Assembly: GCF_028737315.1 (NCBI RefSeq)
Contig: NZ_JAQZAO010000006.1
Span: 62,001-126,000, forward strand
Source: Actinomycetospora lemnae
Lineage (GTDB): Bacteria > Actinomycetota > Actinomycetes > Mycobacteriales > Pseudonocardiaceae
Direction: 5' to 3'
DNA length: 64,000 bases
In this document: positions 15,831-35,832 of the stretch, one piece after another
Position numbering within the stretch: the first letter of the stretch is position 1
Layout of the letters: each line of letters starts with the position of its first letter
Translations under genes and position numbers: made by a program
The notes under the pieces: generated by a model
Databases searched by the model: none
Seen by the model: the letters and a program-made list of their open reading frames with translations, nothing else
What the model was told of the DNA's origin: nothing

Positions 15831-18287
<2,457 letters not shown>

Positions 18288-18919: not shown

Positions 18920-19270
18920 TCAGGCCCGCCCGCCGAGCCGTCCGCGCCCGAGCCGCAGCAGCAGCATGGCGAGCTCCCGGCCCTCGGCGCCGAGCTCACG
19001 GAACCGGGCGAGGACCTGCATCTCGCGGTTGTAGACGATCCGGGGCCCGCCGGCGGCCATCCGCGCCAGCCCGATGCGCTGCGAGATCTCCGAGCGGCGC
19101 CGGACGAGGCGCAGCAGCTCGGCGTCGATCGCGTCGATCTCCTCGCGCAGGGAGGGGATCTCGTCGGCGGTCGCCGGGGCGAGGGGGGCCGACGGGGCAC
19201 CGGTGGACGCGTCGGCGGACCCGTCCCCGGTGTCGGCGGGGCTGTCGGTGGAGCTGGTCGCGGCACTCAC
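18920..19270 (-). CDS. Chorismate mutase (AroQ-delta type, Rv0948c-like)
   Basis: 116 residues. It converts chorismate to prephenate, the branch point to Phe and Tyr. After a ~35-residue Ala/Ser/Thr-rich leader comes the helical AroQ domain: IPSLREEIDAIDAELLRLVRRRSEISQRIGLARMAAGG, then the active-site Arg/Glu region (YNREMQVLARFREL) and LLRLGRGRLGGRA. The short basic C-terminus matches the mycobacterial Rv0948c class, which is activated by complex formation with DAHP synthase. GTG 19270 has GGAGG 9 nt upstream. It is divergent from pcrA exactly as in Mycobacterium. A Phe/Tyr-containing leader ORF and terminator precede it. Confidence 0.93.
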   Translation of the reverse strand: MSAATSSTDSPADTGDGSADASTGAPSAPLAPATADEIPSLREEIDAIDAELLRLVRRRSEISQRIGLARMAAGGPRIVYNREMQVLARFRELGAEGRELAMLLLRLGRGRLGGRA

Positions 19271-19341
19271 GGGGATCGGCCTCCAGGGTGTGTCCGGGTG
19301 GTACCCGGGTCGGTGGGCCCTCGCGACCCCGGACACGAGAA

Positions 19342-19369
19342 CGCCCCGGGGTCCGTGGACTCCGGGGCG
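19342..19369 (-). terminator. Candidate attenuator terminator upstream of chorismate mutase
   Basis: On the minus strand CGCCCCGGAGTC and GACCCCGGGGCG form a 12-bp stem (one G-U pair) with loop CACG, followed by TTCTC. It lies after the leader-peptide stop and 72 nt before the chorismate mutase start, so in mRNA order it is leader peptide, hairpin, gene. A competing pairing can be drawn between GTCCACGG (19360-19353) and CCCGTGGTC (19406-19398). Confidence 0.6.
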
Positions 19370-19391
19370 GCGTGGCAGCGCGGCGGACGCG

Positions 19392-19463
19392 TCAGCTGAC
19401 CACGGGCACCGGGGTCCGGTACCCGTAGGAAAATCGACGGGACTGCTCGCGCACGGCGGTCAT
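19392..19463 (-). CDS. Phe/Tyr leader peptide of chorismate mutase (putative)
   Basis: A 23-codon ORF, ATG 19463 (a second ATG at 19466 directly precedes it), ending TGA at 19392. Its middle is RRFSYGYRTP: one Phe codon (19433-19431) and two Tyr codons (19427-19425, 19421-19419), residues otherwise uncommon in such a short GC-rich ORF. The Tyr codons sit in an 11-bp hairpin with a 3-nt loop (19402-19426, one G-U pair). A terminator follows. The layout matches ribosome-mediated attenuation of amino-acid biosynthesis genes, and Phe and Tyr are the end products of chorismate mutase. No clear ribosome site is visible. Inference from sequence only. Confidence 0.55.
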   Translation of the reverse strand: MTAVREQSRRFSYGYRTPVPVVS

Positions 19464-19580
19464 CATGCCATCGGCGGCGCGTGCGGCCAAACGGCCCGCC
19501 GTCCGGGGTGGGCGGCCGGGGCAGACCCGGGACGCCACGGGACCACCGCTGTCGGAGGGCCCCGGTAGCGTGGACCGACG

Positions 19581-34045: not shown

Positions 34046-35446
34046 TCAGGCGTGTACGGGATCGGTGGACTCGGCGGCGCGGCGGCGCGGCCACTGGCTG
34101 ATCAGCGTCGCCACCCCGGCGACGAGCAGGAGCGCGGCGAGCGCGACGAGGGTCACGTCGATCCCGGCCGAGGTCGGCGGCCGCGCACCGACGGCCTCGA
34201 TGACCGCCGTGGCCGCGACGACGCCGATCCCGCCGACGCAGATCAGCGCGGTGAGCATGACCCCGGAGCCCTCCGCCGACCGCTGCGGCGGCAGCACGTT
34301 CTGCACCGCGAGCTGGCCGAGCCCGTAGCCCATGCCCGTGGTCAGGCCGCACAGGCCGAGCGCGAGGACGTAGAGCGGCAACGGTCCGGCGACCGCCAGC
34401 AGGAGGAGCGCCGGCGTGCACGCCAGCACCGAGACGGCCATGAGGAGGCCGGCGGGCACCTTCGTCGTCAGCCACCCGGACAGCGGCCCGCACGCCGCGA
34501 GCCCCACCGAGGACACGACGAACGCCAGCCCGGCGGTGGCGGCGGAGAGACCGCGCAGGGTCTGCAGGTCGATGGTGGCGGCGACGACGTAGCTCACCGT
34601 GCCGATGTTGGCCAGCGTCCCGGCGGCGCAGAGCACGACGAACAGGCGGTTGCGCACCAGCGAGGGCCGCACCAGCGGCGCGGGGGCGTGCCGCTCCCGG
34701 ACCGCGAACGCGACGAGCAGCGCGATCCCCCCGAGCAGCGGTCCCCAGGTCGCCGGGGTGGTCCAGCCCTGGACGCCCACGTCGTCGATCGCGACGCTGA
34801 CCGCGGCGAGCCCGCCGACGACGGTGAGCACGCCCCACCAGTCCAGCGTGCGCAGGTCCCGCCCGGCCTCCTCGTCCCGGGAGGTCCGCAGGCGCCGGCC
34901 GCTCCACAGCGCGAGCAGGGCCACGGGCACGTTGACGAGGAAGACCCAGCGCCAGCCCACCGTCGAGGACAGGACGCCGCCGACGACCGGCCCGAGGGCG
35001 GTGCCGACGCCCGCGATCCCGAGGAGCGCCCCGGTGACCCGCGGTCGCTCCTCGGGGGTCGTCGCGTTGGTGACCAGTGCGAAGCTCGCCGGCATGATCA
35101 GGGCGGCGCCGACGCCCTGCACCACGCGGGCCGCGATGAGCACCGGGACCGCGGTCGCGAGACCGCACACGAGCGAGCTCAGGCCGAACACCGCGATCCC
35201 GGCGAGGACCACCTCCCGGCGCCCGAGCATCTCGCCGAGCCGGCCCGCCGGGATGAGCAGGGCTCCGAGGGCGATCATGTAGCCGCTGAGCAGCCACTGC
35301 AGGTTCGTCACCGTCGTGCCGAGGTCGACGGCGATGGTCGGCAGGGCCAGGCCCAGTGAGAAGAAGTCGAGCTGGATGCAGAACAGGCCCGCGGCCACGG
35401 GCAGGAACGGCGCTGTCGCACGCAACGTAGTCGCGGACAGCGCCAT
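34046..35446 (-). CDS. MFS transporter, DHA2-like (14-TM drug exporter type)
   Basis: 466 residues, proton-driven exporter. Motifs: TM1 entry LDFFSLGLALPTIAVDLG, motif A GRLGEMLGRREVVLAG, motif B region RVVQGVGAALIMPASFALV, and motif C LLGIAGVGTALGPVVGGVL, typical of antiporters such as EmrB/QacA. ATG 35446 is preceded by TAACGT exactly 7 nt upstream, with no ribosome site (leaderless). An in-frame ATG at 35482 would add 12 residues. It is divergent from the second chorismate mutase and forms an operon with the esterase. The substrate is unknown. Confidence 0.9.
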   Translation of the reverse strand: MALSATTLRATAPFLPVAAGLFCIQLDFFSLGLALPTIAVDLGTTVTNLQWLLSGYMIALGALLIPAGRLGEMLGRREVVLAGIAVFGLSSLVCGLATAVPVLIAARVVQGVGAALIMPASFALVTNATTPEERPRVTGALLGIAGVGTALGPVVGGVLSSTVGWRWVFLVNVPVALLALWSGRRLRTSRDEEAGRDLRTLDWWGVLTVVGGLAAVSVAIDDVGVQGWTTPATWGPLLGGIALLVAFAVRERHAPAPLVRPSLVRNRLFVVLCAAGTLANIGTVSYVVAATIDLQTLRGLSAATAGLAFVVSSVGLAACGPLSGWLTTKVPAGLLMAVSVLACTPALLLLAVAGPLPLYVLALGLCGLTTGMGYGLGQLAVQNVLPPQRSAEGSGVMLTALICVGGIGVVAATAVIEAVGARPPTSAGIDVTLVALAALLLVAGVATLISQWPRRRAAESTDPVHA

Positions 35447-35508
35447 GCGACGTACGTTAGGGCCTTGCGTCCCGACAGTCATCACTCTGCGTCGAGAGGA
35501 TCGGAACC

Positions 35509-35832
35509 GTGACCGCTGCGGACGAGCTCGCCGTGCTGCGCGCCGAGCTCGACGAGATCGACGACGCCCTCTACGACCTCGTGCGACGGCGGATGCGGTG
35601 CATCGAGCGCGTCGGCGCGGTGAAGGCGCGGGCCGGGATACCGGTGTTCCAGCCCGGGCGGGCGGCCGAGGTGGAGCGCCAGGCCGCGGCCCGGGCGCGC
35701 GAGCACGGCCTCGACGAGGGCCTCCTGGTCCGGCTGGCCGACCTGCTCATGGCGGAGGCCATCCGGATCGAGGAGGGGATCGTGGCTCAGCCCGGGTCGT
35801 CGGCGGGGCCGCAGAACTCCCCGCCGACGTAG
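35509..35832 (+). CDS. Second chorismate mutase-domain protein (AroQ fold)
   Basis: 107 residues. AroQ helix: LRAELDEIDDALYDLVRRRMRCIERVGAVKARAG carries the N-terminal Arg, second Arg and Lys active-site positions; PVFQPGRAAEVERQAAARAREHG and LLMAEAIRIEE complete the fold. It is a plain single-domain mutase, unlike the Rv0948c-like one at 18920. Alternatives are isochorismate pyruvate-lyase or aminodeoxychorismate mutase of secondary metabolism, which share this fold. GTG 35509 has AGAGGA upstream. Its 3' end overlaps the convergent uronate-dehydrogenase-like gene by 46 nt. Confidence 0.85.
   Translation: MTAADELAVLRAELDEIDDALYDLVRRRMRCIERVGAVKARAGIPVFQPGRAAEVERQAAARAREHGLDEGLLVRLADLLMAEAIRIEEGIVAQPGSSAGPQNSPPT

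Follow-up and report, generated by a model that had tools for sequence, protein, structure and literature searches.

The 64,000-nucleotide stretch of Actinomycetospora lemnae DNA analysed here (hereafter 'the window') very probably carries, upstream of a chorismate mutase (CM) gene, a ribosome-mediated transcription attenuator responding to phenylalanine and tyrosine, as comparative sequence analysis and RNA folding models suggest. Chorismate mutase is the step that commits chorismate to Phe and Tyr. Translation of the leader, termination, ribosome stalling and a response to starvation are what we infer from the features presented below. A preliminary description of the window had proposed a Phe/Tyr attenuator of CM, which is still the best reading, now backed by conservation of the leader and by compensatory changes: the comparison it had called for, in which relatives were searched for a conserved short open reading frame (ORF), for Phe/Tyr codons and for compensatory changes in the hairpins, was carried out and revealed all three. 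A conserved tRNA-charging switch of this kind would add a transcriptional layer to CM control across a large bacterial order. For Corynebacterium glutamicum, the accessible part of PMC11802643 gives the known control of CM as allosteric, via a complex with DAHP synthase.

The chorismate mutase gene and its putative leader

Residues 35-113 of the encoded CM match PDB entry 2qbv (Rv0948c; E 8.1e-28), and the protein clears the NCBIfam cut-offs for PRK07857.1 and TIGR01808. The gene is divergent to pcrA (a name taken from the preliminary description), whose ORF begins with ATG 19581. Downstream of CM lies an ORF (15831-18287, minus strand) whose 818 residues include long repeats rich in Gly, Val and Thr. 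Elsewhere in the window, at about 35416-35721 on the plus strand, a weak resemblance to CM protein (E 1.2e-7), interrupted by two TAG stops, is probably a composition effect. The leader ORF, the hairpin, the terminator stem and the GTG of CM on the minus strand were all located where they had first been reported (Table 1).

Table 1 Features of the candidate attenuator and its target gene in the window.
Feature	Coordinates	Strand	Remarks
-35-like TTGGCC	19485..19490	-	17 nt before -10 box; region weakly conserved in relatives
-10 box CATGAT	19462..19467	-	seven nt ahead of GTG 19454
Leader ORF VREQSRRFSYGYRTPVPVVS	19392..19454	-	20 codons + TGA; GTG start, predicted leaderless
Control codons TTT TCC TAC (Phe-Ser-Tyr)	19425..19433	-	Phe-Phe-Tyr in most relatives
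Hairpin 1:2	19401..19427	-	12 pairs, loop ACC; compensatory pairs in relatives
Segment 2 (antiterminator)	19400..19417	-	GGACCCCGG 19417-19409 + CGTGG 19404-19400
Segment 3	19357..19375	-	CCACG 19375-19371 + CCGGAGTCC 19365-19357; partner of segment 2
Terminator hairpin 3:4	19342..19369	-	GC stem; compensatory changes at base in relatives
Short T tract TTCTCGTG	19334..19341	-	directly after terminator stem
CM ribosome-binding site GGAGG	19280..19284	-	57 nt past terminator stem; read from sequence
Chorismate mutase (CM), Rv0948c type	18920..19270	-	GTG start at 19270

The leader had been described as a frame of 23 codons. That frame, from ATG 19463 to TGA 19394-19392 and including RRFSYGYRTP, does exist; its start most likely has to be revised. 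Both ATG codons (19466 and 19463) overlap a conserved -10 box and are thus likely untranscribed, for which reason we prefer GTG 19454 and a leader of 20 codons. The pattern [CT]ANNNT, followed after 6 or 7 nt by an in-frame GTG or ATG, was found in 114 of 123 distinct leaders (GTG in 102, ATG in 12), the commonest boxes being CAGACT (28) and CATACT (20), behind TGTG. As the pattern was fitted after inspection of the sequences (a stricter earlier one matched 10/123), out-of-frame start codons served as guard: it occurs at 2.6% of 193 out-of-frame ATG/GTG codons and at 10.8% of all positions. A strict consensus scan for sigma-70 promoters between 19250 and 19600 returned none. The spacing between box and start codon places the presumed transcription start at the start codon itself, so that the leader is most likely translated leaderless from GTG 19454, and the conserved frame and start together suggest that it is indeed translated.

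In 119 of 122 leaders, TTT serves as the first Phe codon (19431-19433 in the window). Across 22 ORFs of the window it accounts for one Phe codon in 277, and for 7 of 938 in ORFs of loci L031-L065, both sets having been picked for a GC3 above 0.88, a selection which by itself depresses TTT. TTT may have become nearly fixed because it is decoded more slowly or because the RNA requires it.

Conservation in the Pseudonocardiaceae

CM is present in all 100 Pseudonocardiaceae genomes, in one of them (G087) by a distant match alone. Upstream of it, the leader anchor, defined as TTT, TTC or TTAC before [TC][AG]CGGG, was detected in 97 genomes, or in 99 when the two diverged copies of G050 and G082 are counted, which the motif scan still picks up; neither anchor nor motif scan found a leader upstream of CM in G087. 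The anchor is absent from loci L061, L106, L119 and L120, and L142 gave no tblastn match. One genome (G059) has two CM genes, the first with a leader (L141) and the second without (L120). The motif matrix was built from leaders among the same loci and is hence a finder and no test; intact leaders score 27-50 and frameshifted ones 4-17; no reverse strand exceeds 14.5, with 11 of 136 reaching at least 12.

The commonest leader peptide reads [R/E/Y]-F-F-Y-G-x-[R/G]-T-P-[A/V]-P-V. Named Actinomycetospora loci, 15 in all, have R-F-x-[Y/H]-G-[Y/T]-R; the second Phe is replaced in seven of them and, by Ser, in the window, the substitutes being Ser, Ala, Arg or Pro. All 123 leaders contain both F and Y, which is partly built in by the definition of the anchor; for this count, the reading frame was forced in leaders without a matched -10 box, L136 included. 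The latter, in which the frame is lost before Tyr, is the one counter-example. In eight of the 123 leaders the frame shifts after FFYG while the hairpin is kept, owing to a 1-nt deletion in the hairpin (L027, L059, L060, L112, L122 and L126) or an insertion (L010 and L087). These eight leaders argue that the tail is conserved on account of the RNA, Phe/Tyr being the coded message.

Compensatory changes in the hairpins

Four alignments were made, A1 with 79 of the 123 regions, A2 with 46, A3 with 38 and A4 with 31 sequences; L026 was left out on account of its long spacer. Across the 79 leaders, 91.8% of cells in hairpin 1:2 and 84.7% in the terminator are paired. Covariation score and paired cells beat all shuffles (0/500 as good), and the number of pairs with changes on both sides shows no excess over shuffles in three alignments (212, 298 and 345 of 500, the first figure being that of the 79 leaders); shuffles and permutations ignore the relatedness of the sequences throughout. 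Individual exchanges in hairpin 1:2 include GC to CG and also AU, UG, CG and UA pairs. Across order and class, G gives way to C at the third position of the Gly codon as the Pro codon CCC on the opposite strand becomes GCC (Ala), and in Streptomyces-like leaders ACGGG:CCCGT is replaced by ATGGC:GCCAT.

What, then, keeps the tail constant, the peptide or the RNA? The near-invariant FFYGxRTPxPV could be an arrest peptide in the style of TnaC or SecM, for which free Phe, Tyr or prephenate might serve as ligand, and amino acid conservation across so many genera is unusual enough to invite this thought. We nevertheless consider it highly unlikely: the tail is out of frame in the eight leaders named above, which retain the RNA hairpin; the Pro-to-Ala exchange is matched by a change from GGG to GGC in the opposite strand of the hairpin; and Streptomyces-like leaders have an entirely different tail. 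Tail shifts and paired changes together indicate that RNA pairing explains the conservation of the tail. The same changes of frame, and exchanges that track the RNA pairing, speak against a small functional protein encoded by the leader, to which we assign a next to negligible probability: the short ORF is conserved, but has only 16-23 codons.

Predicted terminator and antiterminator

The predicted leader RNA (19454-19334) folds with -68.6 kcal/mol (z -4.8; 0/200 shuffles as good). A strict scan for intrinsic terminators between 19250 and 19600 found none, the T tract of the window being short and poor. Among relatives, T occurs on average 3.76 times in the 9 nt that follow the stem, where local composition would predict 0.96 (122 of 123 measured). 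The window's short T tract and negative scan would suit translational attenuation, or a leader RNA that binds a ligand or protein and governs ribosome access to CM, with the ORF being secondary. This T enrichment after the stem in relatives speaks against such a control, as does the distance of the stem, which ends 57 nt before GGAGG in the window and, in other genomes, 60-333 nt ahead of the CM match. Moreover, frame, rare TTT, leaderless start and a gene-specific Trp content (see below) are conserved, and the RNA has no Rfam match: no Rfam family, Phe leader, T-box and riboswitches included, reached its gathering score in the window, and the best weak match over the leader was sRNA P15 with 17.6 bits against a cut-off of 70. 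Control at the level of ribosome access therefore appears very unlikely to us, and transcription attenuation remains the preferred reading.

The segment 2/3 pairing of the preliminary description, CCCGTGGTC:GTCCACGG, turned out not to be the conserved antiterminator. The pairing CCGTGGTC:GTCCACGG forms 7 of 8 pairs in the window and is paired in 71.8% of cells in relatives, without compensatory change; it does no better than shuffles (500/500) or permutations (189/200) and was rejected. That it beats slid versions of itself is expected for a pairing drawn from one aligned sequence. What is conserved is GGACYCCGG:CCGGAGTCC plus CGTGG:CCACG. In the inner helix GGACTCCGG:CCGGAGTCC, 96.3% of cells are paired, but the helix is almost invariant, so that covariation cannot test it (78/200 permutations as good); in the window it contains an A-C mismatch. 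CGTGG:CCACG, the outer helix, shows pairing in 75-78% of cells, occurs in the compensatory forms CGTAG:CTACG and CGTGA:TCACG (GC to AU), and is more stable than permuted versions (native -9.7 versus -8.2 kcal/mol; 0/200 as good). The same holds for a helix that joins the 5' end to the region of the stop codon (native -16.5 versus permuted -13.2; 0/200). A candidate fifth segment after the terminator, CCGGGGTC, pairing with segment 4, was rejected as well (415/500 shuffles as good). Alignment and folding support the mutually exclusive pairings 1:2, 2:3 and 3:4.

Switching and proposed mechanism

Seven Pseudonocardiaceae leaders were folded. Their complete RNA adopts 1:2 plus 3:4. With a ribosome placed on the first Phe, the second Phe or the Tyr codon, and RNA up to segment 3, the antiterminator results, at energies between -20.8 and -34.0 kcal/mol that include the spacer hairpins; placing it at the stop codon instead yields the terminator fold. 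When a stalled ribosome was combined with the complete RNA, the terminator was still best in 20 of 21 cases, from which it follows that antitermination needs a kinetic lead of 2:3. In classical attenuators, the antiterminator wins by forming first.

We suggest that the attenuator senses charged Phe-tRNA and Tyr-tRNA in the following way. Transcription would begin at or next to the leader GTG, and the ORF would be translated leaderless. With ample Phe and Tyr, the ribosome would reach the stop codon and cover segment 2, allowing 3:4 to terminate transcription before CM. If Phe or Tyr is scarce, the ribosome would stall on TTT-NNN-TAC, cover segment 1 and open hairpin 1:2; the freed segment 2 could then pair with segment 3 before segment 4 exists, and CM would be transcribed for want of a terminator. 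In the absence of translation, 1:2 and 3:4 would form and CM would be off. Such a leader would be a ready-made Phe/Tyr sensor and would allow codon specificity to be tested cleanly in a leaderless attenuator.

Relation to known leaders

The E. coli pheL leader, with its Shine-Dalgarno start and Phe-only codons, is unrelated in sequence to that of the window and belongs to another CM type. As outlined in the accessible part of PMC11802643, pheL-pheA is a Phe-codon leader effecting transcription attenuation of a CM fused to prephenate dehydratase. Similar in another respect is the aroR leader of aroF (DAHP synthase) in C. glutamicum (Neshat et al. 2014; PMC11802643, PMC4046766): judging from the parts of these sources available, it is likewise an actinobacterial leader (Phe-Tyr-Phe) with ribosome-mediated attenuation of an aromatic-pathway gene, but it precedes DAHP synthase and not CM, and a response to Phe limitation is reported for it, Tyr availability being without effect (PMC11802643). 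L061, the only CM locus read from a named Corynebacterium, lacks the leader anchor. Streptomyces lividans, also an actinobacterium, has leaderless leader peptides with regulatory codons before amino acid genes (trpL, leuL, ilvL); among the eight leaders listed in the portion of that paper at hand none is for Phe/Tyr, and chorismate goes unmentioned in its text. The uORFC-13-1 before aroF of Acholeplasma, by the available extract a proposed Phe-codon uORF attenuator in the shikimate pathway, differs in phylum, gene and structure. Seliverstov et al. 2005 (PMC1262725), in the part accessible, report that actinobacterial genes for tryptophan, cysteine and leucine have RNA elements, and an absence of conserved structures upstream of other amino acid pathways. 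A word search of the available text of PMC13236596, PMC4633059 and PMC9094748 returned no CM or Phe/Tyr leader.

The statement that such control is undescribed for the Rv0948c-type mutase agrees with our search, which found no CM attenuator in the open-access literature; Lopatovskaya et al. 2010 could hold a prediction. The mechanism is classical attenuation, and its use on CM appears to be new as far as this literature was searched.

Distribution beyond the family

Across the order, covariance model R1 detects the element in 246 of 298 genomes and in 60 of 76 genera (the family included); CM was found in 283 of the same 298. For the 87 genomes listed with both an R1 and a CM match, the two lie on one strand without exception, with 60-333 nt between the end of the element and the CM match downstream. 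All 20 R1-positive loci read outside the family carry an F-x-Y-G leader, Mycolicibacterium palauense (L064) being a named carrier. Of 20 CM loci read in genomes missed by R1, 18 lack such a leader, and one (L180) has a frameshifted version. In another locus (L177, genome G305), a remnant frame MRGGDFLYGQQRVGRG (MRGGDFLYGQQ) without the hairpins lies directly before the CM start and is possibly a decaying copy of the leader. Three loci of one group (L167, L181 and L185; f8 g65) have a CM without the element, preceded by a conserved GLFHG-like short frame that may be a replaced or decayed leader. The own genome of the window contains a single strong full-length match, the next full-length one having an E value of 0.19 or worse.

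At class level, model R2 matches 129 of 296 genomes at E 0.001, partial terminator-only matches included. Twenty of these were read: nine precede CM (L206 weakly), nine precede DAHP synthase and two neither (L199 and L204). Seven of eight R2 matches read at phylum level likewise precede DAHP synthase, L212 being the exception.

Trp codons and DAHP synthase leaders

DAHP synthase supplies Phe, Tyr and Trp, whereas CM supplies Phe and Tyr only. Trp codons are present in 14 of 16 DAHP synthase leaders (e.g. FWRFYGYRP and FGFWFFYGG) versus 4 of 151 CM leaders, two of the latter four having Trp only in a shifted tail; since the leaders are related by descent, the Fisher value for this contrast is no true probability. 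On the sequence level, the contrast fits a sensing of the respective downstream products. That one model finds both kinds suggests common descent of CM and DAHP synthase leaders. We therefore propose, with even odds in our own estimate, that one ancient actinobacterial attenuator lineage, recognisable by its F-x-Y-G core and rare TTT, serves both entry points of aromatic biosynthesis, with Trp codons before DAHP synthase and none before CM. If true, this would amount to a phylum-wide, undescribed control layer in which codon content tracks the branch regulated.

We know of no earlier description of Phe/Tyr leaders before DAHP synthase outside C. glutamicum aroR. No such leader was seen by eye in the 350 nt upstream of the genome's own type II DAHP synthase. 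Among the loci read at class and phylum level, L194-L197, L200-L203, L205, L207-L211, L213 and L214 have a DAHP synthase preceded by Phe/Tyr leaders and terminators, mostly with Trp codons (MQRNFWRFYGYRP, MSRSFGFWFFYGG).
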